Shown: positions 9,373-56,381 of the stretch, one piece after another
Layout: each line of letters starts with the position of its first letter
Numbering within the stretch: position 1 is the first letter of the stretch
From: Ancylobacter novellus DSM 506
GTDB taxonomy: Bacteria; Pseudomonadota; Alphaproteobacteria; Rhizobiales; Xanthobacteraceae
Direction of reading: 5' to 3'
Assembly: GCF_000092925.1 (NCBI RefSeq)
Contig: NC_014217.1
Location: 992,001-1,056,000, forward strand
Length of the DNA stretch: 64,000 bases
Translations under genes and position numbers: made by a program
The notes under the pieces: model-generated
Told to the model about the DNA's origin: nothing
What the model saw: only the letters and a program-made list of their open reading frames with translations
Database searches by the model: none

Positions 9373-9403
9373 AACAAGACACCCGTCACAAGAGCCGCCG
9401 CCC

Positions 9404-11005
9404 ATGACCGACAGCGACACCGACACCGAGACCCTCGCCGCCACCGACGCCGCCGCGCAGCACGACACCATCCTCATCATCGACTTCGGCTCGCAGGTGA
9501 CCCAGCTCATCGCCCGCCGGGTGCGCGAGGAGGGCGTCTATTCGGAGATCGTGCCCTATCAGAGCGCGGCCGAGGCGGTGCGACGGCTCAATCCCGTCGG
9601 CATCATCTTCTCCGGCGGCCCGGCTTCGGTGACGGACGAGGGCAGCCCGCGCGCGCCGCAGGAGGCGTTCGACGCCGGCGTGCCGATCTTCGCCATCTGC
9701 TACGGCCAGCAGACCGCGGCGCTGCAGCTCGGCGGCGAGGTCGAGGGCGGCCATGCTGCCGAATTCGGCCGCGCCGAGGTGACGGTGAACAAGCCGAGCG
9801 CGCTTTATGACGGCGTGTGGGAGGTCGGCGGCCGCTATCCGGTATGGATGAGCCATGGCGACCGCGTCACCCGCCTGCCTGATGGCTTCGAGGTGGTCGC
9901 CACCTCCGAGAACGCGCCTTGTGCCGTCGCGGTGGACGAGGAACGGCGCATCTACACCACCATGTTCCATCCCGAGGTGGTGCACACCCCGCACGGCGCG
10001 GCGCTGATCCGCAACTTCGTGCGCCGCATCTCCGGCGCGCGTGGCGACTGGGGCATGAAGGCGTATCGCGAAGAGGCGATCCGCCGCATCCGCGAGCAGG
10101 TCGGCAATGAGAAGGTCATCTGCGGCCTGTCCGGCGGTGTGGATTCCTCCGTCGCCGCGGTGCTGATCCACGAGGCGATCGGCGACCAGCTCACCTGCGT
10201 CTTCGTCGACCACGGCCTGCTGCGCCTCGGCGAGGCCGAGAAGGTCGTCACCCTGTTCCGCGACGCCTACAACATCCCGCTCGTCCATGTCGACGCGGAG
10301 GAGTTGTTCCTGGGCGCGCTGGAAGGCGTCACCGACCCCGAGGTCAAGCGCAAGACCATCGGCAAGCTGTTCATCGACGTGTTCGAGGCCGAGGCGAAGA
10401 AGATCGGCGGCGCCGCCTTCCTCGCCCAGGGCACGCTCTATCCCGATGTGATTGAGAGCGTCAGCTTCACTGGCGGCCCGTCGGTGACGATCAAGAGCCA
10501 CCACAATGTCGGCGGCCTGCCCGAGCGCATGAACATGAAGCTCGTCGAGCCGCTGCGCGAGCTGTTCAAGGACGAGGTGCGCGCGCTCGGCCGCGAGCTC
10601 GGCCTGCCCGAGGTCTTCGTCGGCCGCCACCCCTTCCCGGGGCCGGGCCTGGCGATCCGCTGCCCCGGCGAGATCACCCGCGAGAAGCTCGACATATTGC
10701 GCCTCGCCGATGAGATCTACCTGGAGGAAATCCGCCGCCACGGCCTCTATGACGAGATCTGGCAGGCCTTCGCGGTGATCCTGCCGGTGAAGACGGTGGG
10801 CGTGATGGGCGACTACCGCACCTATGACTACGTGGTCGGCCTGCGCGCGGTGACGTCCGTGGACGGCATGACGGCGGACTTCTATCCCTTCGACATGGCC
10901 TTCCTCGGCCGCGTGGCGACCCGGATCGTCAACGAGGTGAAGGGCGTGAACCGGGTGGTCTACGACGTGACGTCGAAGCCGCCGGGAACGATCGAGTGGG
11001 AGTGA
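9404..11005 (+). CDS. guaA: GMP synthase (glutamine-hydrolysing)
   Basis: A 533-residue bifunctional enzyme that aminates XMP to GMP. The class I glutamine amidotransferase domain (residues about 22-215) has FAICYGQQ with Cys99 and FHPEV with His189/Glu191. The PP-loop ATPase domain starts with SGGVDSS near 243, and the dimerisation domain ends with the invariant PGTIEWE. The first 20 residues are acidic and not conserved. It completes the purine branch begun by guaB. Confidence 0.97.
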
Positions 11006-31073: not shown

Positions 31074-31955
31074 TCAGTCCCAGGCCGCTCCCGTGAGCAG
31101 GTCGAGCGGGATCTTGAGGTAGCGGATCCCGTTCGATTCCGGTTCGGGCAGCCGCCCGCCATTGGTGTTGATCTGCAGCGACTGCAGGATGAGCTTGGGC
31201 ATGGCGAGGCTGCGGTCGCGCGCCTCGCGGACCGCGACGAACTCCTCCTCGGTCCTGCAGTGCGCCATGTGGATGTTCGTCGCCTTCTGCTCGCCGACCG
31301 TCGATTCCCACCGGGGCTCGCGTCCGTCCGGCTGGTAGTCATGGCCGGTGAAGATGCGGGTCTCGTCGGGAAGCGCCAGGATGGCCTGGATCGACCGCCA
31401 CAACACACGGGCGCTGCCGCCGGGAAAGTCGGCACGCGCGGTGCCGCTGTCAGGCATGAACAGCGTGTCGTGGACGAAGGCGGCGTCGCCGATCACATAG
31501 GTGATCGAGGCCAGCGTGTGTCCCGGCGAGAACATCACCTTGGCGTCGATGCCGCCGACCTTGAACGTGTCGCCGTCGGCGAAGAGATGGTCCCATTGCG
31601 AACCATCGGCGGGAAAGTCCGGCCAGTTGTAGAAGCCCTTCCAGAGCTTCTGCACGTCCTTCACCCGTTCGCCGATGGCGGTCGGTGCGCCGGTCTTTTG
31701 CTTGAGGTAATGCGCCGCCGAGAAATGATCGGCATGGGGATGGGTGTCGAGGATCCACTCGACCTCGTAGCCCTTGGCCCGGATGAAACCGAGCAGACGG
31801 TCCGCATTTGCCGTGCCGGTCTGGCCGGACTTCTCGTCGAAATCATAGACCGGATCGACGATGGCGCAGCGCTTCGTCGCCGGGTCGGCGACGACATACT
31901 GGACCGACCAGGTACGCGGGTCGAAGAAGCCGGTGACTTCGGGCTTGAGGGTCAT
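31074..31955 (-). CDS. ETHE1/Blh-type metallo-beta-lactamase-fold persulfide dioxygenase (copy 1)
   Basis: A 293-residue metal hydrolase-fold protein with DTHPHADHFSAAHYL (the H-x-H-x-D-H signature), SPGHTLASITYVIGD and TGHDYQPDGREPRWESTVGEQKATN near the C-terminus. The last motif is typical of the Blh subgroup, mononuclear iron enzymes that oxidise glutathione persulfide to sulfite. It lies 21 bases upstream of the BigR-like gene and 4 bases after the DUF2892 gene. A second homolog is at 33448-34371. Confidence 0.88.
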   Translation of the reverse strand: MTLKPEVTGFFDPRTWSVQYVVADPATKRCAIVDPVYDFDEKSGQTGTANADRLLGFIRAKGYEVEWILDTHPHADHFSAAHYLKQKTGAPTAIGERVKDVQKLWKGFYNWPDFPADGSQWDHLFADGDTFKVGGIDAKVMFSPGHTLASITYVIGDAAFVHDTLFMPDSGTARADFPGGSARVLWRSIQAILALPDETRIFTGHDYQPDGREPRWESTVGEQKATNIHMAHCRTEEEFVAVREARDRSLAMPKLILQSLQINTNGGRLPEPESNGIRYLKIPLDLLTGAAWD

Positions 31956-31959
31956 GGCG

Positions 31960-32178
31960 TCAGCCCCGGGCGCGGTCGTTGCGCGTGCGCAGCGGGCAAG
32001 TCAACAGGCCGAAGATGGAATAGAGCGGGCAGTTGCCGGCCGCCGCGGTCAGCAGCGGCACCAGGCCGACGAGGCCGATCCAGCGCAGGCCGCCGTCCAG
32101 CACGAAGAGCAGCGACAGCAGGGCGATGCCAATGACGACGCGCAGGGCGCGGTCGAGATTTCCGAGATTGCGAGCCAT
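31960..32178 (-). CDS. DUF2892 (YgaP-like) small membrane protein
   Basis: A 72-residue protein starting MARNLGNLDRALRVVIGIAL, with two hydrophobic helices and GNCPLYSIFGLLTCPLRTR at the C-terminus. This is the DUF2892 inner-membrane domain that in YgaP is attached to a rhodanese; here it stands alone. The two cysteines (GNCPLY, LTCPLR) are conserved in the family. GGGAGTGAACCC precedes the ATG. It is the first gene of the leftward sulfide operon. Confidence 0.85.
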   Translation of the reverse strand: MARNLGNLDRALRVVIGIALLSLLFVLDGGLRWIGLVGLVPLLTAAAGNCPLYSIFGLLTCPLRTRNDRARG

Positions 32179-32231
32179 GGGTTCACTCCCAATGCGCGGC
32201 AGGTTCGACGCGCTTCCAACGATGTATATCA

Positions 32232-32266
32232 ATTGCGAAAAAATGCAATCATAAATACGTAATTAT
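32232..32266. promoter_or_regulatory. Operator/promoter region of the leftward BigR-type operon
   Basis: Between the DUF2892 gene and the next ArsR gene lies an AT-rich island in otherwise GC-rich DNA. It contains ATAAATACGTAATTAT at 32251-32266, a near-perfect 16-base palindrome with one mismatched pair, and an ATTGC/GCAAT repeat at 32232-32249. An AT-rich dyad in this position is what is expected for an ArsR-family operator. Confidence 0.5.
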
Positions 32267-32297
32267 TCGGACGTGAGAGCAGGTATCGCGTGCGGCC

Positions 32298-32687
32298 TTA
32301 GGACACGATCCGGGCGAAGACGGCGGCTTCCCGGTTGGAGCGCCGTCCGCCGGCGGGCGGCGCCGGCGGCTGGGGAGCGGCAGGGCTGGCGGCGGGCATC
32401 GCCCCGCCGAACTGCGCCTCAATGCTGTGCACGCACTGCTCCACGCCGGCGTCGGCCAGCCGGTAGAAAACCTGTTTCGAGGCCCGCCGGGTGGCGACGA
32501 GCCCGCCCTTCCGCAGTCCGGCAAGCTGCTGGCTGAGCGCCGGCTGGCCGATGCCGGTGGCGGCGTCGATCTCGCCGACGGTCATCTCGCCAGCCTGCAG
32601 ATAGGAGAGGATCATGAGCCGCTGCGGCTGGCTGTAGATGCGCAGCTTCTCGACGGCCTTCTCGGCTTCCTCGCGGGTCAGAGGCAT
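32298..32687 (-). CDS. ArsR-family regulator with Pro/Ala-rich tail
   Basis: A 129-residue regulator with the ArsR fold (LRIYSQPQRLMILSYLQAGEMTVGEID; recognition helix IGQPALSQQLAGLR; wing TRRASKQVFYRLAD). Unlike its neighbours it lacks a cysteine at the first sensor position (SYLQ in place of C-x-L) and keeps only the Cys in VEQCVHS, so its signal may differ. A Pro/Ala-rich, basic tail of about 35 residues follows the domain. The ATG at 32687 is preceded by GAGGTGAGCC; a GTG three codons earlier is inside that ribosome-binding site. It directly follows the peroxiredoxin gene. Confidence 0.85.
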   Translation of the reverse strand: MPLTREEAEKAVEKLRIYSQPQRLMILSYLQAGEMTVGEIDAATGIGQPALSQQLAGLRKGGLVATRRASKQVFYRLADAGVEQCVHSIEAQFGGAMPAASPAAPQPPAPPAGGRRSNREAAVFARIVS

Positions 32688-32692
32688 GAGGC

Positions 32693-33346
32693 TCACCTCG
32701 GCTCGATGGTGCGGCAGAACCAGGCGGGATCGTCGTCGGACAGCAGCGTCTCGTCGCTGAGCGGGCGGAGCACGGGGTCGCCCGGCTGCCAGCCTTCCGG
32801 CGTCACGGCGTCGCCTTTCTCGACGCGCTTCAGCGCGATGGCGAGGCGCAGCATCTCCTGCGCCGAACGCCCGACCGACATCGGATACCAGCTGAGGGCA
32901 CGGACGATGCCGTCCGGGTCGATGAAGAAGCTCGCCCGCACGGTCGAGGAATCCTGGGCCGTCTCGTCGAGCATGCCATAGGCGCGGCTGATGACGAGCG
33001 AGGTGTCCTCGACCACCGGGAAGGGCACCTCGACATTGAAGGCGCCGCGGATCGCCCGCAGCCAGCCCATATGGGAGAACAGGCTGTCCACCGAGAGGCC
33101 GAGCAGGGCGAAGCCCGCGGCCTCGAACTGCGGCGCCAACCGGGCGAGCGCGATGAACTCGCTGGTGCAGACCGGGGTGAAGTCCGCCGGATGCGAGAAG
33201 AACAGCAGCCAGCGGCCCCGATAGTCGCTCAGCCGGATCTGGCCCTGCGTCGAGCGTGCGCTGAACACCGGGGCGGCGTCGCCGATCCGCAGCGGGCGCG
33301 GGGCAGACCGCGCGGAATCGGCCCCGGAGATGAGTTGCTCTGTCAT
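32693..33346 (-). CDS. 1-Cys-type (Prx6-like) peroxiredoxin
   Basis: A 217-residue AhpC/TSA protein. The peroxidatic cysteine is in SHPADFTPVCTSEFIAL, and the C-terminal part (FFIDPDGIVRALSWYPMSVGRS, GWQPGDPV) is of the Prx6 group. The conserved second cysteine of 2-Cys enzymes is not evident; Cys in PAWFCRTIEP near the C-terminus could resolve instead. Here, in a persulfide operon, it may reduce peroxides or oxidised sulfur species. The ATG at 33346 is preceded by AGAGGAC; a longer frame upstream overlaps the operator and is unlikely to be used. Confidence 0.87.
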   Translation of the reverse strand: MTEQLISGADSARSAPRPLRIGDAAPVFSARSTQGQIRLSDYRGRWLLFFSHPADFTPVCTSEFIALARLAPQFEAAGFALLGLSVDSLFSHMGWLRAIRGAFNVEVPFPVVEDTSLVISRAYGMLDETAQDSSTVRASFFIDPDGIVRALSWYPMSVGRSAQEMLRLAIALKRVEKGDAVTPEGWQPGDPVLRPLSDETLLSDDDPAWFCRTIEPR

Positions 33347-33393
33347 GTCCTCTGATTGCCCCTTGCGGGAAAGTGACGCAATCCGCATTTACA

Positions 33394-33412
33394 ATTACAT
33401 ATATTATGTAAT
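33394..33412. promoter_or_regulatory. ArsR-type operator palindrome between peroxiredoxin and ETHE1-like gene
   Basis: ATTACATATATTATGTAAT is a perfect inverted repeat of two 8-base arms around TAT. It lies in the divergent promoter region of the peroxiredoxin-ArsR genes (left) and the ETHE1-SQR-TauE operon (right), in an AT-rich island. Length, symmetry and base content fit BigR-type operators. Confidence 0.65.
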
Positions 33413-33447
33413 CATGAAATTAATGATCGCAATCGGAGGATCCGCTC

Positions 33448-34371
33448 ATGTCCGACCTGCCTCTCGAAAGGGCCGCCGACCAAATCCGCGCCGCCCGCAC
33501 GGCTGCCAACCGCCTCGCCGTGGAAGCCTTCTTCGACGAGCCGACCAACACCGCGAGCTACGTCATCCATGACCCCGCCACGAAGCGGGCGGCCGTCGTC
33601 GACAGCGTGCTCGATTTCGATGCCGCTTCCGGCCGCACCTCCACCGCCTCGGCGGACGCGATCATCGCTTTCGTGAAGCGCGAAGGCCTGACGGTGGACT
33701 GGCTGCTGGAGACCCATGCCCATGCCGACCATCTGTCGGCCGCGCCCTACATCCAGCGCGAGATCGGCGGCAAGCTCGCCATCGGCCGCGAGATCATCAC
33801 CGTCCAGAGCGTCTTCGGTAAGATCTTCAACTTCGGCACCGAATTCGCCCGCGACGGCTCCGAATTCGACCGACTGTTCGAGGATGGCGACACGTTCAGC
33901 GTCGGCTCTATCCCGGCGAGCGTGCTGCACGTCCCCGGCCATACGCCGGCCGACATGGCCTATGTGATCGGCGATGTCGTCTTCGCCGGCGACACCATCT
34001 TCATGCCCGACTTCGGCACGGCGCGGGCCGACTTCCCCGGAGGCGACGCCCACCAGCTCTACCACTCGATTCGGCGGCTTCTGTCGCTGCCGGACGAGAC
34101 GCGGCTGTTCCTGTGCCACGACTACAAGGCGCCGGGCCGTGACACCTATGCGTGGGAGACCACCGTCGGTGCCGAGCGTGCCGGCAACATCCACGTGCGC
34201 GACGGCGTGGACGAGGATGATTTCGTCGACATGCGCACGCGGCGCGACGCCACCCTCGCCATGCCCAAGCTGATCCTGCCCTCGGTGCAGGTGAACATCC
34301 GTGCCGGCAATCTTCCCGAGCCGGAAGAGAACGGCCGCCGCTACCTCAAGCTGCCGCTCGACACGCTCTGA
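33448..34371 (+). CDS. ETHE1/Blh-type metallo-beta-lactamase-fold persulfide dioxygenase (copy 2)
   Basis: A 307-residue protein with ETHAHADHLSAAPYIQ, VPGHTPADMAYVIGD and LCHDYKAPGRDTYAWETTVG, the same metal and substrate motifs as the homolog at 31074-31955 plus an N-terminal extension of about 20 residues. AATCGGAGGATCCGCTC before the ATG is a strong ribosome-binding site. It heads an operon with the DUF442-SQR fusion and the TauE exporter. Together the three would oxidise sulfide to persulfide, persulfide to sulfite, and export the sulfite. Confidence 0.9.
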   Translation: MSDLPLERAADQIRAARTAANRLAVEAFFDEPTNTASYVIHDPATKRAAVVDSVLDFDAASGRTSTASADAIIAFVKREGLTVDWLLETHAHADHLSAAPYIQREIGGKLAIGREIITVQSVFGKIFNFGTEFARDGSEFDRLFEDGDTFSVGSIPASVLHVPGHTPADMAYVIGDVVFAGDTIFMPDFGTARADFPGGDAHQLYHSIRRLLSLPDETRLFLCHDYKAPGRDTYAWETTVGAERAGNIHVRDGVDEDDFVDMRTRRDATLAMPKLILPSVQVNIRAGNLPEPEENGRRYLKLPLDTL

Positions 34372-34442
34372 CACGCATCACCCCGACAAGGCGGGCGTCG
34401 GCCAACCCACGACCGCCCGCCCAGAGATTTGAGGAAACGTCC

Positions 34443-36134
34443 ATGACGCCAAAGCAGATCACGCCGGACTTTCATGTCACCGGCCAGGTGGACCATGCCG
34501 GCCTCGCCGCGGCCGCCGCGGCGGGCTTCCGTACCGTCATATGTACGCGGCCGGACGATGAGGAGCCGAACCAGCTCAACGCCGCCGAGGCCGGTGGCCT
34601 CGCCGAGGCGCTCGGCATGGCCTTCGTCCACATCCCCGTGACGCCCGGCACTTACGTCGATGAAGATGTGGCCTCGATGCGAGCCATGCTCGACCGGCTG
34701 TCTGGTCCCGTGCTGGGCTATTGCCGCAGCGGTGCGCGTGCGGCGACCCTCTGGGCTCTCGCCGAGGCAGGACGGCGGACCCCGGCGGAGATCCTCGCCC
34801 TGACCGACGCCGCCGGCATCGACGTCTCCGGCCAGCGCGCACGCCTCGCCGCCCGCGCTGGCGACGCCCGGGGCATGGCGCCGAAGATCTTCGACGTCGT
34901 GATCGTCGGCGGCGGCGCCGCGGGCATCGCGACGGCGTCGAGCCTGCTCAAGCGCCGCCCCTCGCTCGACATCGCCATCGTCGAGCCGGCGGAGTGCCAC
35001 TACTACCAGCCGGGCTGGACCATGGTCGGCGCCGGCGTGTTCCAGCCGGACACCACCCGCGTTCCCATGGGCGCTGTGATGCCCGACCGCGTCACCTGGA
35101 TCCGGCAGGCGGCGGCCGGCTTCGCTCCGGAGACGAAGGAGGTCACCCTCGCCGATGGTTCGTCGGTGCGCTACCGCGCGTTGGTGGCGGCGCCGGGCCT
35201 GCGGCTGGCCTGGGAGGCGATACAGGGCCTTCCGGAGGCACTCGGCCGCAACGGCGTCACCTCGAACTACCGCTTCGACCTCGCACCCTACACCTTCCGC
35301 ACCGCCAGCTCGGTGAAGCCGGGGAGGGCGCTCTTCACCCAGCCGGCCATGCCGATCAAATGCGCCGGCGCGCCGCAGAAGGCGATGTACCTCTCCTGCG
35401 ACATCTGGCGCGAGGCCGGCCTCCTGCCGCGCATGGAGGTGGAGTTCCACAATGCCGGCGGCGTCCTCTTCGGCGTGCCGTCCTATGTGCCGGCGCTGAT
35501 GGAATATGTCGAGCGCTACGGCATCGACCTCAATTTCGGTTCCACCCTCGTGGCCGTCGACGGCGACGCGCGGGTCGCGACCTTCGAGCGCAAAGCGACC
35601 GATGGCACCGTCGAGCGGGTGGAGCGTGGGTTCGAGATGCTCCACGCCGTGCCGCCGCAGAAGCCGCTCGATTTCGTCGCCGCCAGTCCGCTGGCCGGCG
35701 CCGGCGGCTGGATCGACGTCGATCCGGCAACCCTGCGCCATATGCGCTATCCGGACGTCTTCGCCCTGGGCGACGCCACCAATACCACGAACGCCAAGAC
35801 CGCCGCTGCCGCGCGCAAGCAGGCGCCGGTGGTGGCGGTAAACGTGCTCGCGGCGCTGGAGGGGAAGGCGCCCGCCGCCCAGTATGACGGCTACGGCTCC
35901 TGCCCGCTCACCGTCGAGCGCGGCAAGATCGTGCTGGCGGAGTTCGGCTATGGCGGCGTGCTGCTGCCGACCTTCCCGAAATGGATCCTCGACGGCACGC
36001 GTCCCACCCGTCTCGCCTGGTTCCTCAAGGACCGCATGCTGCCACCGATCTACTGGCACGCCATGCTGAAGGGGCGCGAATGGCTCTGCGGGCCGGAGCC
36101 GATCCCCGCTCCGGCCCGTAACGAGGTGGCCTGA
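34443..36134 (+). CDS. DUF442 phosphatase-like/sulfurtransferase domain fused to sulfide:quinone oxidoreductase
   Basis: A 563-residue fusion. Residues 1-135 are the DUF442 (TIGR01244) domain with an active-site loop YCRSGARAATLWAL (Cys94, Arg99). From 150 onward it is an SQR-type flavoprotein: FAD loop VVIVGGGAAGIATA, Cys185 in EPAECHYYQPGW, the conserved region PIKCAGAPQKAMYLSCD (Cys307, Cys319), ALGDATNTTNAKTAAAARKQAP, and YDGYGSCPL near 480. Residues and motif order resemble the mitochondrial-type SQR. It oxidises sulfide at the membrane, feeding quinone, with the DUF442 domain possibly accepting persulfide. The stop overlaps the start of the TauE gene. Confidence 0.9.
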   Translation: MTPKQITPDFHVTGQVDHAGLAAAAAAGFRTVICTRPDDEEPNQLNAAEAGGLAEALGMAFVHIPVTPGTYVDEDVASMRAMLDRLSGPVLGYCRSGARAATLWALAEAGRRTPAEILALTDAAGIDVSGQRARLAARAGDARGMAPKIFDVVIVGGGAAGIATASSLLKRRPSLDIAIVEPAECHYYQPGWTMVGAGVFQPDTTRVPMGAVMPDRVTWIRQAAAGFAPETKEVTLADGSSVRYRALVAAPGLRLAWEAIQGLPEALGRNGVTSNYRFDLAPYTFRTASSVKPGRALFTQPAMPIKCAGAPQKAMYLSCDIWREAGLLPRMEVEFHNAGGVLFGVPSYVPALMEYVERYGIDLNFGSTLVAVDGDARVATFERKATDGTVERVERGFEMLHAVPPQKPLDFVAASPLAGAGGWIDVDPATLRHMRYPDVFALGDATNTTNAKTAAAARKQAPVVAVNVLAALEGKAPAAQYDGYGSCPLTVERGKIVLAEFGYGGVLLPTFPKWILDGTRPTRLAWFLKDRMLPPIYWHAMLKGREWLCGPEPIPAPARNEVA

Positions 36135-45443: not shown

Positions 45444-45575
45444 CGGCGACACAGCGGCCGCGGCGCATCCCCTAGATGAATGCCGCAGTCATCCCCCACG
45501 CGCGCCGTCCGCGTCACCGAAGCTTCGTCTTGCCGCCGCACGATCCCCTCCAGAAACGGAGCGACGTCGGGCGGA

Positions 45576-46712
45576 ATGACCCAGTACTTTCACAATGCGA
45601 GGATCGTGCTCGCCGACGAGGTGGTGCGCGGCTCGCTTGCCGTCGAGAACGGCGTGGTGGTCGGCATCGACGCCGGTGCGGCCGCTGCGCCGGGCGGGCT
45701 CGACTGTGAGGGCGATTACCTGCTCCCGGGCCTTGTCGACATCCACAGCGACGCGCTTGAGAAGTACATCGCCCCGCGCCCCAACGTGATCTGGCCGCCG
45801 GTCTCGGCGGCGGTGGCGCATGACGCGGCGGTGGTCGGGGTGGGCATCACCACCATTCTCGACGCGGTAGCGCTGGTCGGCGGCAAGAATGGCGACCGGG
45901 CGCAGATCCACCGCCTGATGATCGACGGCCTCGACGAGGCCCGCGACGCGGACGCGCTCGGCGCCGACCATCTGCTGCACATACGCTGCGAGGTGCCGGA
46001 TCAGCAGATCATCGAGCGCTTCGAGACCATACGCGGCCATGAGGCCATCCGCATGATTTCGCTGATGGACCATACCCCCGGTCAGCGCGTCTTCGCCGAT
46101 CTCGGCATGTGGCGCGACTATCGCCGCAAGAGCGACAATATGAGCGAGGCGGCGCTGGACGAGGCGCTGCTGCGCGGGCGCGATGCGCATGAGAAATACG
46201 CCTCCCGCAACCGCGCCGCGCTCGCCGCGCTGGCGGCGGAGGATGACCTTGTCATCGCCACGCATGACGATGCGACGCCGGCCAACATTCATGAGGGGGC
46301 CGGCCTCGGCAGCGCCATCGCCGAGTTCCCGACGACGCTGGAGGCGGCGCGCGCGGCCCGCGAGGGCGGCCTCTCCATCGTCATGGGCGGGCCGAACCTC
46401 GTGCGCGGCGGCTCGCATGTCGGCAACGTTTCGACCGCCGCCTGCGCCGGCGAAGGCCTGCTCGACATCATGTCGTCCGACTACATGCCGGTGAGCCTGC
46501 TGCACGCCGCCTTCCTGCTCACCCGCGAGCCGGTCGGCTACGCGCTGCCGCGCGCGGTGGCGACGGTGAGCGCCAACCCGGCGCGGGCGCTCGGCCTCGA
46601 CGACCGAGGCGTGATCGCCGTCGGCCGGCGGGCCGATCTGGTGCGGGTACACGAAGCAGACGGACTGCCGCTGGTTCGCTCGGTCTGGCGTACGGGCCAG
46701 CGCGTCCACTAG
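45576..46712 (+). CDS. phnM: PhnM, alpha-D-ribose 1-methylphosphonate 5-triphosphate diphosphatase
   Basis: A 378-residue amidohydrolase of the PhnM type: metal motif VDIHSDALEKYIAPRPN near 50, LLHIRCEVPD near 145, LVIATHDDATPANIHEGA near 235, MGGPNLVRGGSHVGN near 272 and LGLDDRGVIAVGRRADLV. PhnM removes pyrophosphate in the C-P lyase pathway. The start at 45576 follows GGGCGGA. No C-P lyase core genes (phnG to phnL) are in this window, so its partners must lie elsewhere or the gene has another role. Confidence 0.93.
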   Translation: MTQYFHNARIVLADEVVRGSLAVENGVVVGIDAGAAAAPGGLDCEGDYLLPGLVDIHSDALEKYIAPRPNVIWPPVSAAVAHDAAVVGVGITTILDAVALVGGKNGDRAQIHRLMIDGLDEARDADALGADHLLHIRCEVPDQQIIERFETIRGHEAIRMISLMDHTPGQRVFADLGMWRDYRRKSDNMSEAALDEALLRGRDAHEKYASRNRAALAALAAEDDLVIATHDDATPANIHEGAGLGSAIAEFPTTLEAARAAREGGLSIVMGGPNLVRGGSHVGNVSTAACAGEGLLDIMSSDYMPVSLLHAAFLLTREPVGYALPRAVATVSANPARALGLDDRGVIAVGRRADLVRVHEADGLPLVRSVWRTGQRVH

Positions 46713-46810
46713 CTCATGTGCAGATAATCGCGTCGCAATTCTTCCGGCAGCCTTGAGCCGCGCCGGTCATTTCTTTCGATAACGCTGATACAGCAAATGG
46801 AAGGTTCGAC

Positions 46811-47683
46811 ATGATACGCAAAACCTTGGCTGTCCTGGCCATGGCCGCCTGTTTCGCGGCCCCGGCCTTCGCCGAAACCTACAAGCTCGCCGTTACCGAC
46901 GTGGAGGGCATGGAGCGGCTGCAGACCGACTGGGGTCCGTTCAAGGCGCAACTGGAGAAGGCCACCGGCGACACCTTCGAGTTCTTCCCGGTAGCGAGCC
47001 GCACCGCCGCTGCCGAGGCGCTCAAGGCCAAGCGCGTCGACTTCGTCATCACCGGCCCGGCCGAATATGTCGTCATCAACAAGCTGACCAACGCCAAGGC
47101 CATCATCGGCCTGAGCCGCCCGGACTATTTCTGCGCCATCGTGGTGAAGGCCGATTCCGGCATCACCGCGCCGGTGCAGCTCAAGGGCAAGAAGGTCGGC
47201 ATGGACGACATCGGCTCGACCTCGGGCCATCTGTGCCCCTCGCAGCTTCTCGCCGACTACGGCGTCTCGGTCACCAAGGACCTCGGCGGCATCACCCACA
47301 CCTCGCGCCAGGTCGCCCATGAGGCGCTGAAGCGCGGCGACGTCGCCGCCATCGGCGTCAACTACAACAGCTGGCTGTCGGTGCGGAACAAGGACAAGAG
47401 CGTGCCGGCCGGCTCGTTCCGCGTCATCGCCCGCTCCGGCGACCTGCCGAACGACATGATCGTCGTCGGCGCCCATGTCGATCAGGAAGTCGCCGAGGCG
47501 CTGGTCGCCGCCATGATCAAGAACAAGGCGCAGATCATCGACGGCATCCTCTCGGCCGGCGATGAGCAGGAGAAGTACCGCGGCATGGACCTCGTGGCGC
47601 TGAAGGACAGCGACTACGACCGCGTGCGCGCCATGTACGTCACCATCGGCTACCCGCAGTTCGGCGAGTTCATCGGCAAATGA
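46811..47683 (+). CDS. phnD: PhnD, phosphonate/phosphite-binding periplasmic protein
   Basis: A 290-residue ABC substrate-binding protein with a Sec signal (TLAVLAMAACFAAPAFA). The PhnD pattern is visible: GMERLQTDWGPFKAQLEKATG, ALKAKRVDFVITGPAEYVV, the binding-loop region KVGMDDIGSTSGHLCPS and VGVNYNSWL-type segment. It delivers phosphonates or related phosphorus oxyanions to PhnC/PhnE. GGAAGGTTCGAC precedes the ATG; a 98-base gap to phnM may carry a promoter. Confidence 0.93.
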   Translation: MIRKTLAVLAMAACFAAPAFAETYKLAVTDVEGMERLQTDWGPFKAQLEKATGDTFEFFPVASRTAAAEALKAKRVDFVITGPAEYVVINKLTNAKAIIGLSRPDYFCAIVVKADSGITAPVQLKGKKVGMDDIGSTSGHLCPSQLLADYGVSVTKDLGGITHTSRQVAHEALKRGDVAAIGVNYNSWLSVRNKDKSVPAGSFRVIARSGDLPNDMIVVGAHVDQEVAEALVAAMIKNKAQIIDGILSAGDEQEKYRGMDLVALKDSDYDRVRAMYVTIGYPQFGEFIGK

Positions 47684-48480
47684 CGCTCACCCTGGCGCAC
47701 GGCGTCGAGACGCCGAAACTGGCAGCACGCAGCACTGCGGAAGGCCAGATCAGCGTGCGGGATCTCGCCGTGCGCCACGGTTCGAACCCGGTGGTGTTCT
47801 CCGGGGTCAGCTTCCACATCGAGCGCGGCGAGACCGTCGCGCTCATCGGTGCCAACGGCGCCGGCAAGTCCACCCTGCTCAAATGCTGCCTCGGCCTGAT
47901 GGCGCCCGCCAATGGGGAGGTGCGCATGTCCGGCCAGCCGATCGGCGGCCTCGGCACCGGCGCGCTGCGCCGCCTGCGCGGCACGGTCGGCTTCGTGGCG
48001 CAGAGGCATAATCTCGTGGTGCGTCTCTCGGTGCTGTCCAACGTCCTGCACGGCACGCTCGCCGCCAACCCCGGCCCCGGCGCCTGGCTGCACGCGCTGG
48101 CATCGAGCACGCAGCGCGAGCGCGCCATGGAGGCGCTGGAACGTGTCGGCCTCGCGCATCTGGCGCTGAAGCGTGCTGACCAGCTTTCCGGCGGCCAGTC
48201 GCAGCGCGTCGCCATCGCCCGCGCTCTGGTCGGCGGGCCGCGCTTTATCTTCGCCGACGAGCCGGCCGCCAGCCTCGATCCCGCGGCCGGCGAGGAGGTG
48301 ATGCAGGTGTTCATGCGGGTTGCCCGCGATACCCGCACCACGCTCGTCTTCACCACCCACAATCTCGACCATGCGCTCACCTATGCCGAGCGTGTGCTGG
48401 GGCTCTATGAGCGGCGCCTCGCCCTCGACGCCCCGGCGGTCAGCCTGCAGACCGGAGGCTTGCGTGACCTCTACAACTGA
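47680..48480 (+). CDS. phnC: PhnC, phosphonate ABC transporter ATPase
   Basis: A 266-residue ABC ATPase: Walker A GANGAGKST near residue 55, signature LSGGQSQRVAIARAL near 170, Walker B FIFADEPAASLDPAA and the switch His in FTTHNLDHAL. It powers the phosphonate importer with PhnE and PhnD. The start overlaps the phnD stop by four bases, and the end overlaps phnE. Confidence 0.93.
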   Translation: MTLTLAHGVETPKLAARSTAEGQISVRDLAVRHGSNPVVFSGVSFHIERGETVALIGANGAGKSTLLKCCLGLMAPANGEVRMSGQPIGGLGTGALRRLRGTVGFVAQRHNLVVRLSVLSNVLHGTLAANPGPGAWLHALASSTQRERAMEALERVGLAHLALKRADQLSGGQSQRVAIARALVGGPRFIFADEPAASLDPAAGEEVMQVFMRVARDTRTTLVFTTHNLDHALTYAERVLGLYERRLALDAPAVSLQTGGLRDLYN

Positions 48481-49282
48481 CGCCGCCTCGCGGGGCGGCC
48501 GCCCGCTGCCGCCACGCTTCGTCCGGCCCTCCATCACCACCTTCCTCGGCTATCTCATCGGCCTCGCCGTGCTGGTGTGGTCGATCCAAGGTTCGGGTTG
48601 GTCGATGACGGCGATGCTCGACGGCGTGCCGGCGCTGATGGACTTCCTCTCCCGTGCCTGGCCGCCGAGCCTGACCCGCATCGACACGCTGTCGCAGGCG
48701 CTGGTGCAGACCTTTCAGATGGCCATCGTCGGCACCGTGGCGGGCGTCGTCCTCTCCGTGCCGCTGGCGATCCTCGCCGCGCGCGGACTGCTGGCGGGGC
48801 GCATCGTCAACGGACTGGCGCGAGCGGTGATCGCCTTCTTCCGCACCGTGCCGGACCTCGTCTGGGCGCTGATCTTCGTCATCGCGGTCGGCCTCGGCCC
48901 CTTCGCCGGCACGCTCGCCATCGCGGTCGACACTGCCGGCTTCTGCGGCCGCTTCTTTGCCGAGGCGATGGAGGACACCGACAAGGGCCCGGTGGAATCG
49001 CTGCGCGCGCAGGGCGTGCGCCGGCTCGACACCATCTTCTGCGCGGTGATCCCCGCCGCCATGCCGGCCTTCATCACCACCACTTTGTTCGCGCTGGAGA
49101 AGTCGACCCGTTCCTCGGTGATCCTCGGCCTGGTCGGTGCCGGCGGCATCGGCCTGGAGCTGAAGGTGGCGATGGACATGTTCGACTACCCGACCGCGGC
49201 GACCGTCATCCTGATGGTGTTCGGGCTGGTGATGCTGGTCGAGCAGGCCGGCTCCTGGGCGCGCGGGCGGATCATCGGCTGA
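48464..49282 (+). CDS. phnE: PhnE, phosphonate ABC transporter permease
   Basis: A 272-residue membrane permease with about six hydrophobic helices and the EAA loop ESLRAQGVRRLDTIFCAVIPAAMPAF near residue 180. LVQTFQMAIVGTVAGVVLSVPLAI and RTVPDLVWALIF are typical of PhnE. The GTG at 48464 is 17 bases inside the end of phnC with GGAGG upstream, which explains the overlap. It completes the phnDCE importer. Confidence 0.93.
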   Translation: MTSTTDAASRGGRPLPPRFVRPSITTFLGYLIGLAVLVWSIQGSGWSMTAMLDGVPALMDFLSRAWPPSLTRIDTLSQALVQTFQMAIVGTVAGVVLSVPLAILAARGLLAGRIVNGLARAVIAFFRTVPDLVWALIFVIAVGLGPFAGTLAIAVDTAGFCGRFFAEAMEDTDKGPVESLRAQGVRRLDTIFCAVIPAAMPAFITTTLFALEKSTRSSVILGLVGAGGIGLELKVAMDMFDYPTAATVILMVFGLVMLVEQAGSWARGRIIG

Positions 49283-50316: not shown

Positions 50317-51168
50317 TCAGTGCGGTGGCATGGGGATGAAGACCGGGGGCGTACCGGGGAATCTGGAGCGGCGCATGATCTCGGCGTCGTCCGCCGTTCG
50401 TGGCTTCAGATAGAAATAGAACCGGTTGGCCCGCTCGACGATGTCGTCGGATGGGGTGCTGCTCTGGCTGATGAGCATGTCGGACTGCACCTGCACATGC
50501 ATATAGCCCGGGATGAGTTCGCTCCAATCATCGAGGTCGGCCTCGAAGAGCACCGAATAATCGGAAGCGCCGTCCAGCCGGACCACGCCCCAGGAGGTGC
50601 CCGCCGGCGCCTGTGCCGGGACCTCCTGCCATGTAAGCCCGGTCTGGATGAACACCCGCGGTTGGCTGAGCATGACGTAGAGCGCCGCATCCGGGCGCGT
50701 ATTCTGCATTCGCAGCGTCGCCCGGTACTTCGTGCCGTCCGGCTCATAGCCGACGCGCACGAGTTCGACGAACAGGCCGCCAAAGGCCCTGCTCGACAGC
50801 TGTTGCGCCGCCGCCTGCCGGGCCTCTGCCGCGCGGCGTTGATACCAGCCGATAGCGAAATCCACGAGGAAGCCGAGGCCGATGAGCAGGACCAGGATCT
50901 GCAGGGGCCGATAGTCGAGCCAGCGCGACACTCCGTGGCCACGGCTCGGTCGCGCGCTGACCGCGCGGGTCGAGCGCGGCGCGGCATCGATCCGCCGGCG
51001 CAATTCCCCGGTCCTGTCGGCCTGCGGATCGATGCCCCCGGAGGGGGCGCGGATCGGTGTGCTGTCCTCGCCTTCCAGCGCCAGCACCGTCTCCCACAGG
51101 CTGACGATCAGCGCGTCCTTTTCCGCCGGGTCGAGCCGAGAAAGATCGGGCAGGCCGGGGCGCTTCAT
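50317..51168 (-). CDS. Single-pass membrane protein of the ABC/thiocyanate-type operon
   Basis: A 283-residue protein with a soluble N-terminal part (about 85 residues, charged), one strong transmembrane helix (LQILVLLIGLGFLVDFAIGWY near 88-110) and a periplasmic domain of about 170 residues that looks like an Ig- or DUF-type sandwich. The start overlaps the LolD-like gene by four bases. The opening LDPAEKDALIVSLWETVLALE resembles the IS66 transposase N-terminus, but no other part does. It is the last gene of the leftward operon; the function is unknown but probably tied to the ABC pair. Confidence 0.65.
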   Translation of the reverse strand: MKRPGLPDLSRLDPAEKDALIVSLWETVLALEGEDSTPIRAPSGGIDPQADRTGELRRRIDAAPRSTRAVSARPSRGHGVSRWLDYRPLQILVLLIGLGFLVDFAIGWYQRRAAEARQAAAQQLSSRAFGGLFVELVRVGYEPDGTKYRATLRMQNTRPDAALYVMLSQPRVFIQTGLTWQEVPAQAPAGTSWGVVRLDGASDYSVLFEADLDDWSELIPGYMHVQVQSDMLISQSSTPSDDIVERANRFYFYLKPRTADDAEIMRRSRFPGTPPVFIPMPPH

Positions 51169-51833
51169 GGCGCGAGCGTTCCGTCGAGCATTTGGAAGAC
51201 CGGCTCCGCCTCGGCCGCGAGCGCCAAGCTGTGGGTGACCAGCAGCAGCGTGGTGCCACGGCGGCGGTTCAGGTCGAGGAGCAGCGCCATGATCTCGCGC
51301 TCGCTGCGCTCGTCGAGGTCCGATGTCGGCTCGTCGGCGAGCAGCAGCTTTGGCGCGTTCATCAGCGCGCGCGCAATCGCCACGCGCCGCTGCTCGCCGG
51401 AAGAGAGCTCGGAAGGCAGCGCATCGAAATGATTGTCCAGGCCGACATCGGCGAGCAACCCGGCCGCCGCATCCAGGATGTCGCCCTGCCTACGCACCCC
51501 GGCCAGGCGGGCGGGCAGTGCGACATTCTCGATGGCGTTGAGACTCGGCAGCAGGCTCGCGAACTGGAAGACGTAGCCGACCTGCGCACTGCGGAAGGCC
51601 GCAAGAGCTGAGTCCGAAAGCGCCCAGATGTCGGTGCCGTCGATCAGCACCTGGCCGGCGGTCGGCCGGCTCAGTCCGCCGATCATGGCGAGCAGCGAGG
51701 ACTTGCCTGAACCGGACCTGCCGACCAGCGCGGCGTAGCGGCCGCTGCCGACGTCGAGATCGATGCCGCGTATAGCGTCGACCGATCCGCGATCGGTCTC
51801 GTAACGCTTCATCAGGCCCCGGCAAGCGAGCAT
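51165..51833 (-). CDS. LolD/MacB-type ABC ATPase
   Basis: A 222-residue ABC ATPase with Walker A GRSGSGKSS near 41, Q-loop QFASLLPSLNAIENV, a variant signature LSSGEQRRVAIARAL (usual LSGGQ), Walker B LLLADEPTSDLDE and HSLALAAEAE after it. This belongs to the LolD/MacB/FtsE group that works with FtsX-fold permeases. The ATG at 51833 lies 2 bases after the permease stop. Its partner is the FtsX protein next door. Confidence 0.88.
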   Translation of the reverse strand: MLACRGLMKRYETDRGSVDAIRGIDLDVGSGRYAALVGRSGSGKSSLLAMIGGLSRPTAGQVLIDGTDIWALSDSALAAFRSAQVGYVFQFASLLPSLNAIENVALPARLAGVRRQGDILDAAAGLLADVGLDNHFDALPSELSSGEQRRVAIARALMNAPKLLLADEPTSDLDERSEREIMALLLDLNRRRGTTLLLVTHSLALAAEAEPVFQMLDGTLAP

Positions 51834-51835
51834 CT

Positions 51836-53068
51836 TCAGCCTTCTTTCCGGATGAGGTCGTAAGTCTCGCTGCGTCCGAGGCGCCAGGCCGGTACCCATG
51901 CGCCGACCACGCCGACGAGCGCGGCGCCGGATACGCACAGCGCAGCGATCAGGATGGTGGTCGGGCCGTCGAGCCAGAGAAAGGGAATACCCATCTCGCC
52001 GAGATGATGGACCAGCATGCGCTCGAACATCCTCAACAGCAGCACGCCGAAAAGGACGCCGATCACCGCGCCGCCCGCGGTCGCGATGGTCGCCTCGATG
52101 ATCGCCATGCCGACGATCTGGCCAATGCCGGCGCCGATCGCCTTCAGCAGGCCGAGTTCCCGGCGGCGCTCGGCCATGATGGCGGAGAACAGCACGCCGA
52201 CCATCACGGCGGTGCCGACCGATAATAGTCCGACGAGCACGACCAGTCCGCCGAGCAGCGCGACCAGTCCCTGCCGGATGCCAGTCATCAGCGAGCCGCC
52301 GGTGACCACCTTGACGCCGGGAACGCGCGACAGCAGCGCGAAGCGCGCCTGCAACTCGGTGGCCCCCGGTGCCATCTCGATCAGGAAGCCGGAAACCCTG
52401 TCCGGTTCCAGCATCCGCGGAACCGCCCCGGCGCGCTGGCGTACCGCCGGCGCAAGCGCGACGAGGGCTTCTGATTGCATGAACACGCCGCGCTCCTGCG
52501 TGCCCGACCCGGTGCGGGCGAGCTTGCCGTAGACACGGAAGGGCTGGCCGAAGAGGACCAACTGTGAGCCGAGAGGCAGGTCCCGCGCCGCACCGACGAT
52601 GACGTCGCTGGGCTGCATCGTGCCGGAGAGCCGCTCGGAGAGCCAGGGCTGCACGGTGAAATCGGTCCGCGGATCGAACCCGATCAGGTCCACCAGCTCA
52701 TCATTGCCGCCGAAGCCGGATTGGTCGGTCCGTAGCACGCGCTGCGCGGCCACTTTCGACATGCCGCCGATGCCGGCGCCGGAAATGGCGTCGGCCGGCA
52801 GCGTCTGGTCGGTCGGCTCGACGGTAAGCAGGGCGTTGCTGATGTTGGTGAGCGTGCTCTCGCTGACCACCATGAGATCGGCCCCCATACGGCTAAGGCC
52901 GACCTCCATGCTGGAGACCACGCTACGCATCACGACGATGCCGGCAAAGGTGACGGCGCTGCTGATCGCGATCGCAGCGATCAGCATGCAGGTGCGGGTC
53001 TGCCGGCGGCCGAGATTTTTGGCCGCCAGCTCGAGCAGCAGCCAGCGTGACGAGGCGAACGGCTTCAT
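51836..53068 (-). CDS. FtsX/MacB-like ABC permease
   Basis: A 410-residue permease with an N-terminal helix (TRTCMLIAAIAISSAVTFAGIVVM), a large periplasmic MacB-PCD-like domain (residues about 50-265) and three C-terminal helices (GLLSVGTAVMVGVLFSAIM, VGMAIIEATIATAGGAVIGVLFGV, ILIAALCVSGAALVGVVGA). This type carries out mechanotransmission or lipoprotein release rather than import. In this operon it may serve maturation or copper or sulfur handling for the exported propeller enzyme; that is inference. Confidence 0.87.
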   Translation of the reverse strand: MKPFASSRWLLLELAAKNLGRRQTRTCMLIAAIAISSAVTFAGIVVMRSVVSSMEVGLSRMGADLMVVSESTLTNISNALLTVEPTDQTLPADAISGAGIGGMSKVAAQRVLRTDQSGFGGNDELVDLIGFDPRTDFTVQPWLSERLSGTMQPSDVIVGAARDLPLGSQLVLFGQPFRVYGKLARTGSGTQERGVFMQSEALVALAPAVRQRAGAVPRMLEPDRVSGFLIEMAPGATELQARFALLSRVPGVKVVTGGSLMTGIRQGLVALLGGLVVLVGLLSVGTAVMVGVLFSAIMAERRRELGLLKAIGAGIGQIVGMAIIEATIATAGGAVIGVLFGVLLLRMFERMLVHHLGEMGIPFLWLDGPTTILIAALCVSGAALVGVVGAWVPAWRLGRSETYDLIRKEG

Positions 53069-53093
53069 CGGGCGGCGCGTCCCCCGCCGCCAG

Positions 53094-54938
53094 TCAGAGC
53101 GTGCAGGAACGCGTGTGCTTCATGTGCTCGAGCTCGGTGGGAATGATCACGCAGTCATGGTGGCCGCCGGTGCTCGGCAGGATGCCGATCAGATTGTCGG
53201 TCGCGGCGTCGATGATGGCGATCCCGCTCGACAGCCGCTGGAAGCCGCTGAACGGCACCACGACGAACTTGCCGTCATAGGTGATGGCCGGCGTCTGCAG
53301 GTCCGGGCCGATGCCCTGGATCTCCTTGCGGATGGTCCAGGTGTCGGTGTCGACCACCATCACGCCGCTCGCCGCCGGCGAGGGATGGAGCACGGAAAGG
53401 TAGAGCTTCTTCGAATCCAGCGAGAACACCATGTGGAACGGATTGGGGTATTTCCCCTTCCACAGCGGATCCTCGACATGGGCGATCTTCTTCCAGTTGC
53501 GCGGATCGGGATCCTCGCAGGAGAAGACCGAGCAATTATTCTCGCGCAGATTGTTCATCATGCAGAGGAACCGGCCATCCGGCGAAAAGCCGATCTCATG
53601 ACCGGGCGAGTGGATCTTGTCGAACGTGACCTCCCAATGGTCTTGGTCGAGCTTCACCACTTCGTACTGGTCGGGCGAGTCCACGTTGAACTGCAGGAAG
53701 GCGACCGGCTCGAAGCCGTTCTCCGCATCGAGAATGGCGATGCCGCCGCACAGCCGCACGACGGTCGCGGCCCAGCGTCCGGTCGGATGCCAGATGGTGC
53801 CGTCGGCGCCGGTGAGGCCCATCGGATCGTCGCCGGGCAAGGTGCCTTCCTCGACGAAGAGCTCGCCCATGGGCACCATCTCCCAGTCGATCTTCTGGCC
53901 CTTGGTGCCGAGATAATCGTACTTGCCGGTGGCGGCATCGGGATAGATCTTCGAGATCTTCAGCACCCCGCCGTCCTGCCACGCCCGATCGAGGCGGGTC
54001 GAATTCGCCTTCCAGTCGAATTTGAGCGCCGCCTTCACCTGCGAGGTGGTGCGGTCGAAGCAGGCGGCGATGTCCTTCTGCCCGTCGGTCACGAAATAGG
54101 ACTGCGCGTCCTTCGGGTTGACGCAGACATGCACGCCGAGACCGAGGCCTGTGGTCTCCGACACGTTCTCCATCAGCTGCATCTGCGCGCCGTCATAGCG
54201 CACGCGGTAGATATTGAAGCCCGGGCCCGGCTCGGTGATGTTGGTGGGGATACCGTAGATCAGCGAGTTCTTGCCGCCCTGCGTCGAGTTGACGAACTCG
54301 AAGCTGTGATACGGGTCGGCGCTCGGAAAGGCGCAGAGATGGTGGGAGATCGGGTTGAAGTCCCCGTAGTTCCAGTACCAGATCGAGGCGAGCACGCGGT
54401 TGGTGTTGAGGTCGAGCGCATAGGTGCCGCCGCCCATCTTGGTCGGCAGCAGGGCTACCCACTTGCCGAGGCCCTGGCCGTCGAAACTCGAGCGGGAGTC
54501 GATGAGCTCGCGGGCGATCGGCGCGCTCTGCGCCTGCGCGACGACCGAGGCGCCGGCTTGAGCGCTCCCGTCGCCGCCCGTCACACCGAGCGCGTTCAGC
54601 GCGCCGGAACCATAGGCGAACGCAGCGGTCTCGCCGACGATCGCCGTCGCGGCCGCAGCCTTGAAGATGTTGCGGCGGGTGAAACGGGTGGACGTCGCCT
54701 CGTCCGTCGGCGCCTCGTCCGCGGGCATTGGCGGCGGCAATATCTGGCGCGCCGCAAGCGCCCGGGCCTGCTTCTCGCGGAGATAGTCCTGGAACTCCTC
54801 GTGGTCCGAACGCGCTACCTCGTTGCGGCGGCTGAGATAGGCATCGATCTGCGCGCGCGGCGACGGTTCCGGCTGCGCGGCCACATCCGCACGGTGCTGC
54901 GCTTCCTCGTCCCGCCCAGTCTTGCCTAGCTCATCCAT
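53094..54938 (-). CDS. Tat-exported NosZ-like beta-propeller, probable thiocyanate dehydrogenase
   Basis: A 614-residue protein. A polar N-terminus of 85 residues precedes a Tat signal (TRRNIFKAAAATAIVGETAAF), then a propeller resembling nitrous oxide reductase without the CuA cupredoxin domain. Conserved histidines fall in NPISHHLCAF (about 199-200), LGVHVCVN (270), SPGHEIGFSPDG (447), NPFHMVFS (502) and GGHHDCVI (593-594), with DWEMVPM (Glu353) and GADG (Asp379). From memory this pattern of widely spaced His residues fits the trinuclear-copper thiocyanate dehydrogenases of Thioalkalivibrio. If so, it oxidises thiocyanate in the periplasm to cyanate and sulfur. The ATG follows AGGGAGGGGCG. 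Confidence 0.6.
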   Translation of the reverse strand: MDELGKTGRDEEAQHRADVAAQPEPSPRAQIDAYLSRRNEVARSDHEEFQDYLREKQARALAARQILPPPMPADEAPTDEATSTRFTRRNIFKAAAATAIVGETAAFAYGSGALNALGVTGGDGSAQAGASVVAQAQSAPIARELIDSRSSFDGQGLGKWVALLPTKMGGGTYALDLNTNRVLASIWYWNYGDFNPISHHLCAFPSADPYHSFEFVNSTQGGKNSLIYGIPTNITEPGPGFNIYRVRYDGAQMQLMENVSETTGLGLGVHVCVNPKDAQSYFVTDGQKDIAACFDRTTSQVKAALKFDWKANSTRLDRAWQDGGVLKISKIYPDAATGKYDYLGTKGQKIDWEMVPMGELFVEEGTLPGDDPMGLTGADGTIWHPTGRWAATVVRLCGGIAILDAENGFEPVAFLQFNVDSPDQYEVVKLDQDHWEVTFDKIHSPGHEIGFSPDGRFLCMMNNLRENNCSVFSCEDPDPRNWKKIAHVEDPLWKGKYPNPFHMVFSLDSKKLYLSVLHPSPAASGVMVVDTDTWTIRKEIQGIGPDLQTPAITYDGKFVVVPFSGFQRLSSGIAIIDAATDNLIGILPSTGGHHDCVIIPTELEHMKHTRSCTL

Positions 54939-54970
54939 TCGCCCCTCCCTCGTGTCATGTTCCTGGCCAT

Positions 54971-55684
54971 TCAGCCGCCTGCCTTGCCGGCATGCGTCGT
55001 GCGCGGGCTCTTCGCTGCGCGCGTCGCCCGTGCGCCAGCGGCACCGGCCGCCGTCGCAGACTTTCGGAGCAGGGCATCCTTGGCGCGGTTGATCTTCATG
55101 GCGAGATAGTCGGTCCCACCCCGGTCGGGGTGGACCAATTGCATGAGCCGGCGATGGGCCTTGCGCACCTCTGCTGCGTTCGCCCCATCGGCGAGGCCAA
55201 GCACCGCGCGGGCCTCCTCGGCGCTCATCGGGCCGCCGTCCGCCTCGATCTCGTCACTCGAATTTCGCGCGATCGCATCGTGGCGGCTCGCATGTGCGAT
55301 GTAATCCTGAAGAACGATAGCGGCCCGGCGCGCCAGCTCTGCATCGGGGACGGGCGGCTGGTAGTAGGGACGCACCTCGGCAGGCATTTCGCCCTCGACC
55401 CACATCGGCCGAAAGCGCGCGCGCGGCAGCAACATGCGCCACTTGACCACGACCAGCGCGAGCAGCATCGCCGCGCCGAGCAGCATGGCTCCTGTCCAAT
55501 TCTGGAGCGCGAGCAATGTCATCAGGCCGGGCACGGAGGCGACAGCGACGATAAGCAGGCCGAGCCGTCCCATGCGCATGACGACGCGCGGATCGGAATG
55601 CGAAATCCAGTCGATAAACTTGATGCCGCTGATGATGAGGGAGATGGCCAGGGCGATGGAACTGATCACCATTCCACTACTCAT
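54971..55684 (-). CDS. Membrane-anchored J-domain (DnaJ-like) protein
   Basis: A 237-residue protein with about three hydrophobic helices (residues 5-25, 40-60, 62-82) and a C-terminal J domain (AEEARAVLGLADGANAAEVRKAHRRLMQLVHPDRGGTDYLAMKINRAKDAL in pieces; HPD tripeptide about residue 190). The tail is Ala/Lys/Arg-rich. It resembles DjlA/Pam18-type proteins that recruit Hsp70 to a membrane. It is the first gene of the leftward operon that encodes the propeller enzyme and may assist its folding or export. Confidence 0.85.
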   Translation of the reverse strand: MSSGMVISSIALAISLIISGIKFIDWISHSDPRVVMRMGRLGLLIVAVASVPGLMTLLALQNWTGAMLLGAAMLLALVVVKWRMLLPRARFRPMWVEGEMPAEVRPYYQPPVPDAELARRAAIVLQDYIAHASRHDAIARNSSDEIEADGGPMSAEEARAVLGLADGANAAEVRKAHRRLMQLVHPDRGGTDYLAMKINRAKDALLRKSATAAGAAGARATRAAKSPRTTHAGKAGG

Positions 55685-55934: not shown

Positions 55935-56381
55935 ATGTCCACGTTCGTCAAGCTTGCCACGCTCGGTGTGGCCGCCGCCGCTATAGGCATTGCGCTCGCC
56001 GGTATGGACGACCGGCCGGGCTTCGGACGGGTGCGAGAAGCGGAGCCGGCAACAAAACCTGCCGCACAGCTTGACGTCTCGCGGCAGCTTGTGGGGTTGC
56101 ACGATGCAATGCGCATCCTCCCGGAGCAGGAAGGGGCGTGGCGCAGCTTCGTCGCCGCGATCATGGAACTCGACCGTTTGACGCGGGCCTTCACGGCGGA
56201 AGAGAGCATCGACAGCGCAAGCGCGGACGAAGAGCGGGCCCGGCATGCGCTCATGTTCGGCATCGCCCTCAGCGAGATTGAAGCCGCGCTCTCCGCCGAG
56301 CAGGCGGCCCTGTTGCAATCTCGCGCGACATCGCTGGGCCGCGCATTCGTCTGCTCCGGGGTTCAGGCCGGCACGTCCTGA
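55935..56381 (+). CDS. Small exported helical protein, Spy/LTXXQ-like
   Basis: A 148-residue protein with a hydrophobic leader (VKLATLGVAAAAIGIALAG). The mature helix-rich part includes VGLHDAMRILPEQEGAWRSFVAAIMEL and ALSEIEAALSAEQAALLQSRATSLGRAF, the LTxxQ-like repeat pattern of Spy/CpxP periplasmic chaperones. No good ribosome-binding site is seen before the ATG at 55935. It is divergent from the J-domain operon and shares its promoter region, so it may act in the same envelope or copper-related process. Confidence 0.6.
   Translation: MSTFVKLATLGVAAAAIGIALAGMDDRPGFGRVREAEPATKPAAQLDVSRQLVGLHDAMRILPEQEGAWRSFVAAIMELDRLTRAFTAEESIDSASADEERARHALMFGIALSEIEAALSAEQAALLQSRATSLGRAFVCSGVQAGTS

Follow-up and report, generated by a model that had tools for sequence, protein, structure and literature searches.

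The propeller operon of Ancylobacter novellus

In a stretch of 64,000 nucleotides from the genome of Ancylobacter novellus DSM 506 (hereafter the window), we analyzed an operon that encodes a relative of thiocyanate dehydrogenase (TcDH) together with four accessory proteins. The species, a sulfur oxidiser formerly named Starkeya novella, carries the operon on a genome of one contig with 4,765,023 bases. The five genes are located on the minus strand, are read from position 55684 to 50317 and are closely spaced, in agreement with the positions and gene types given in an initial annotation of the sequence. The first gene (54971..55684) encodes a membrane protein with a J-domain. It is followed by the propeller gene (53094..54938; 614 amino acids), the gene of an FtsX-type permease of the ATP-binding cassette (ABC) class (51836..53068; 410 amino acids; Pfam FtsX, E-value 5e-15, and a multiple alignment with n = 16) and the gene of a LolD-like ABC ATPase (51165..51938; Pfam ABC_tran, E-value 7e-32). 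The last gene (50317..51168) encodes a single-pass membrane protein with a predicted beta-sandwich domain, an invariant Tyr-Met-His (YMH) motif and a C-terminal Met-Pro-Pro-His (MPPH).

Sequence alignment, predicted fold and structure comparison identify the propeller as seven-bladed and homologous to TcDH (EC 1.8.2.7), which bears out the relationship proposed initially. The identity to TcDH is approximately 48-50% and the superposition is close. With the crystallised enzymes of Thioalkalivibrio paradoxus (5F75) and Pelomicrobium methylotrophicum (8Q9X) it shares the propeller fold, export by the twin-arginine translocation (Tat) pathway and 12 of 13 active-site residues. The protein starts with a helical N-terminal extension, followed by the Tat motif (RFTRRNIFK with the arginines at residues 88-89, read by eye from the sequence) and the propeller itself (residues ~151-614). 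The TcDH alignment extends to residue 612-613 of 614. Since it ends within two residues of the protein end, there is no space for a C-terminal CuA cupredoxin domain as expected of NosZ. The description as a Tat-exported propeller without CuA therefore stands, but the term NosZ-like describes no more than the fold; at the sequence level, the protein is related to TcDH. Ancylobacter aquaticus also holds a propeller relative.

The copper site and position 482

For TcDH, thirteen active-site residues are listed in PMC6504805 (Fig. 4 legend); according to its text, they bind copper, bind water or give the cavity its shape. Twelve of them are identical in the aligned window propeller, in which the thirteen sites are K167, H199, H200, Q220, H270, E353, D379, H447, H502, Q548, H594, D595 and R610. 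Histidines at about 200, 270, 447, 502 and 594 had been pointed out as compatible with the TcDH site. All of them align with TcDH histidines, H199/H200, H270, H447, H502 and H594 corresponding to His135/136, 206, 381, 437 and 528 of Thioalkalivibrio. However, the seventh listed histidine, His482, had been overlooked. It is replaced by Gln548, by which the protein departs from the residue set of TcDH. Failure of the histidines to superpose had been named as evidence against the proposal; by alignment, only His482 fails in this way.

The same exchange was engineered deliberately in crystallised TcDHs, as the PDB titles of 6SJI ("His 482 replaced by Gln") and of 8YU5 and 8YU6 ("H447Q") indicate. 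The identical residue thus stands at the identical place, engineered there and natural in the window propeller. No description of the natural glutamine was found in the literature searched. A structure paper of 2020 is said to describe His482 as a copper ligand and not merely as a cavity residue.

Conservation of the site was analyzed in 232 distinct sequences, which comprise the best 120 of 646 matches to the window protein, the best 120 of 353 matches to the TcDH chain (12 common to both), the 5F75 chain and three genome loci; they are best-listed matches and no random sample. Position 482 is Gln in 154 of these sequences and His in 77, and one is a fragment. Among the best-listed homologues of the window protein, 120 of 120 have Gln. 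The other twelve listed sites show no variation in 231 sequences, including the 154 Gln-types. Among the columns that are fixed differently in the two types, 482 is the sole listed active-site position that separates them (His-type 75/75, Gln-type 154/154). Position 459 nearly does so, with Asn in 74/75 His-type and Ser in 154/154 Gln-type sequences. Around the window protein, Gln548 is under purifying selection.

Propellers with at least 68% identity were found in 6 of 198 genomes of the family, all six with Gln. A distant His-type propeller is present in two of the 192 remaining genomes (G472, G497), both without the single-pass gene. One Gln-type match (G491:C171:2062-3796) is split into two pieces in different frames, by a frameshift or an assembly error. 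The Gln-types reach beyond the alphaproteobacteria, as one protein (P0190) is named from Tautonia, a planctomycete genus. In a tree of 44 sequences, all seven distant homologues have His at 482 and the clade of the crystallised TcDHs is nested among the Gln-types, with two changes in total. Forcing the Gln-types into one group costs 0.37 log units (approximately unbiased test, p 0.483). Therefore, both histories of the residue remain compatible with the tree. The distant His-type homologues L038-L044 (31-34% identity to the window protein) show the identical site pattern except that His482 is retained, and no match to the permease or the single-pass gene was found in their seven flanks (11-18 kb each). 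A 489-amino-acid homologue from Afipia, 33.7% identical to 5F75, was called thiocyanate desulfurase and taken to predict thiocyanate use (PMC8061750). It probably belongs to this distant His-type branch, different from that of the window protein.

The propeller could be a true TcDH in which Gln replaces His482 as ligand and which oxidises thiocyanate, with cyanate and sulfur as products, either to gain energy or for detoxification and the supply of nitrogen or sulfur. The identity, the close superposition and the twelve retained sites fit this, and several Gln-type proteins are labelled thiocyanate desulfurase by JGI on the basis of similarity. Cyanase was not found in this genome, but this is no argument against a true TcDH since the thiocyanate-oxidising Thioalkalivibrio is without cyanase too (PMC6504805, PMC6934394). 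However, the type strain Starkeya novella ATCC 8093T was reported not to grow on thiocyanate (PMC3570799), and every sampled member of the subfamily has Gln at a residue picked for mutation in two crystallised TcDHs. Turnover without growth would be compatible with the negative growth test. All in all, a true TcDH seems rather unlikely. Because of the missing His482 and the reported lack of growth, the propeller was not assigned to TcDH. In view of the same two observations, the idea that thiocyanate serves as electron and sulfur source in this organism is not supported. The named families common to at least 3 of the 15 neighbourhoods compared likewise included no recognisable sulfur gene.

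Accessory proteins and their linkage to the propeller

Neighbourhoods were counted in 14 named genome loci. The permease gene adjoins the propeller gene in all 14, shortened by a contig end in L011. The ATPase is present in 13 and the single-pass protein in 12 of the loci; contig ends cut off the ATPase gene in L011 and the single-pass gene in L011 and L012. All five operon genes are present in L045, and L037, whose propeller is just 48% identical, contains permease, ATPase and the single-pass part. Over the 198 genomes, the single-pass gene occurs in the same six as the propeller and in only one of the 192 others (Fisher p 9e-11, relatedness ignored). In this same-genus genome (G456) the gene is broken, with pieces in two reading frames, and adjoins a permease fragment (~8433-9634 of locus L049, G456:C11:24000-42000); no propeller match was found genome-wide.

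The single-pass protein was assigned to no family by Pfam and NCBIfam searches. In L009 and L037 it shares a single open frame with the ATPase, and an ABC domain is present in 7 of the 20 relatives of this L037 protein found in the database. The protein ends in MPPH in each of 15 loci; among 21 proteins, made up of the L037 query plus its 20 matches, 17 have this ending. YMH is invariant across 15 aligned sequences. From the sequence, the Met and His of the invariant tail suggest Cu(I) handling by this protein. No description of the fusion or the MPPH tail was met in the literature, in which neither was searched by name.

The best match of the ATPase is LolD and that of the permease is FtsX, as would be expected of a LolCDE- or MacB-like exporter of lipoproteins or small molecules which merely shares the operon. 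However, the LolD match (NCBIfam TIGR02211) reaches 222.5 bits and stays below the cut-off of 307.75 for the lipoprotein-release ATPase. The co-occurrence of single-pass gene and propeller, their joint decay in G456 and the conserved Met/His motifs also argue against such an exporter, which we consider improbable. The LolD match begins at residue 36, and the start of the ATPase is therefore more likely at ~51833 than at 51938.

The tight linkage to the propeller supports the initial proposal of maturation factors, a function that we infer from this linkage. In Thioalkalivibrio, two permease/ATPase pairs and the gene of a one-helix hypothetical protein come after tcdh. They are induced on thiocyanate, and copper transport was the first hypothesis (PMC5744179, PMC5328954). 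An ABC system beside TcDH is therefore not new. Judged by gene type, the ABC genes lie likewise directly downstream in both, whereas the window operon has one pair instead of two. It further differs from the systems of the crystallised TcDHs by Gln at the His482 position, the long N-terminal extension and the J-protein gene. The Thioalkalivibrio cluster also has copCD, fccAB and a sigma-54 two-component system. These are not among the genes flanking the operon in the window, and none was recognised among the named families in at least 3 of 15 loci. NosZ with NosDFY and NosL is likewise a copper propeller whose operon includes an ABC system, and it has a chaperone dedicated to Cu(I); NosDFY is thought to supply sulfide and NosL copper (PMC6530538). 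In contrast, the window propeller is without CuA and no sequence relation was seen; chaperone and ABC type differ.

The J-domain contains the HPD motif (MQLVHPDRGG), and its DnaJ match (E-value 1.7e-5, 25.3 bits) is under the curated cut-off of 27.8. A relative is present in 13 of the 14 named loci, and its lack in L007 is not explained by a contig end; no J-protein was found within 18 kb in L037. The N-terminal extension of the propeller is predicted, with moderate confidence, to form a long helix (residues 27-66) ahead of the Tat motif. A long region precedes the propeller in 139 of 153 Gln-type database proteins, and a motif of the kind V-x3-D-x3-F-Q-x-Y-L was found in 110 of these 153 versus none of 74 His-type proteins. 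Extension and J-protein mostly co-occur; in L007 the extension is present but a full-length J-protein is not, and L037 has neither.

Proposed function and genomic surroundings

On balance, we consider it likely that the operon as a whole serves to produce and mature a periplasmic copper oxidoreductase from the TcDH family, belonging to a "Q-type" subfamily with Gln at the His482 position. Homology, fold, residue pattern and accessory-gene linkage are direct observations, and the propeller is a TcDH relative in fold and in nearly the whole active site. It probably functions like TcDH. The membrane J-protein, together with DnaK, would hold or release the precursor via the unusual helical extension before Tat export, and the apo-propeller would be exported in the folded state. 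Permease, ATPase and single-pass protein would form one complex. Its YMH and C-terminal MPPH groups would hold the copper, which the complex could deliver into the funnel of the propeller with the use of ATP. There, the histidines that are left would bind the copper, and Gln would act at one corner as an altered or weaker ligand. This site might oxidise a small anion by two electrons, either a pseudohalide resembling thiocyanate or some other small sulfur compound, and the electrons would go to a c-type cytochrome. Thiocyanate may still be converted, though not as a growth substrate. A propeller without redox catalysis, acting as periplasmic copper store, chaperone or sensor, would agree with the loss of one listed histidine but is very improbable, as a store would hardly need the other twelve residues that are invariant in 154 Gln-type sequences.

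It is also possible, though doubtful, that the Gln-types are a separate enzyme class with its own substrate, that the classical TcDHs arose from Gln-type ancestors by regaining His482, and that both use a new copper-insertion machine of FtsX-type ABC transporter and Met/His-tipped membrane subunit, similar to NosZ maturation but unrelated. With its three copper atoms, the TcDH centre represents a rare chemistry, and a substitution engineered in two crystallised enzymes occurs naturally throughout a large clade. This makes it possible to test, in a culturable bacterium, what residue 482 does, which substrates the family accepts and how such a copper cluster is assembled. Names based on similarity, such as thiocyanate desulfurase, may exaggerate how far many alphaproteobacteria use thiocyanate.

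The annotation of the window covers part of its genes. A sox locus had been placed near the operon. Sulfur-oxidation genes are indeed present in the window at ~18-36 kb, but at least 14 kb away. They encode flavocytochrome c sulfide dehydrogenase-like, Blh-like and SQR-like proteins and a protein with a 5'-nucleotidase domain, as in SoxB. The region 31074-36134 contains the Blh-like sulfur dioxygenase and a protein in which a TIGR01244 sulfur-transferase domain is fused with an SQR-like domain. Upstream of the operon, a small divergent protein with a hydrophobic stretch at its N-terminus is encoded on the plus strand (55935..56381). It matched no family in a Pfam search and is retained next to the operon in near relatives (7 of 15 loci). 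Its membership in the system is uncertain; a role as regulator or chaperone in the periplasm is conceivable. On the other side, a PhnM-like protein and a phosphonate-type ABC transporter adjoin the operon (45480-49282). In 3 of 15 loci (L001, L003, L005), a chloride-channel-like gene is found no more than 10 kb from the operon, and a gene is so annotated on plasmid 2 of Methylocella tundrae (L036, NZ_LR536451.1, 304 kb). This plasmid carries the entire operon, with its genes annotated as hypothetical or generic ABC transporter.
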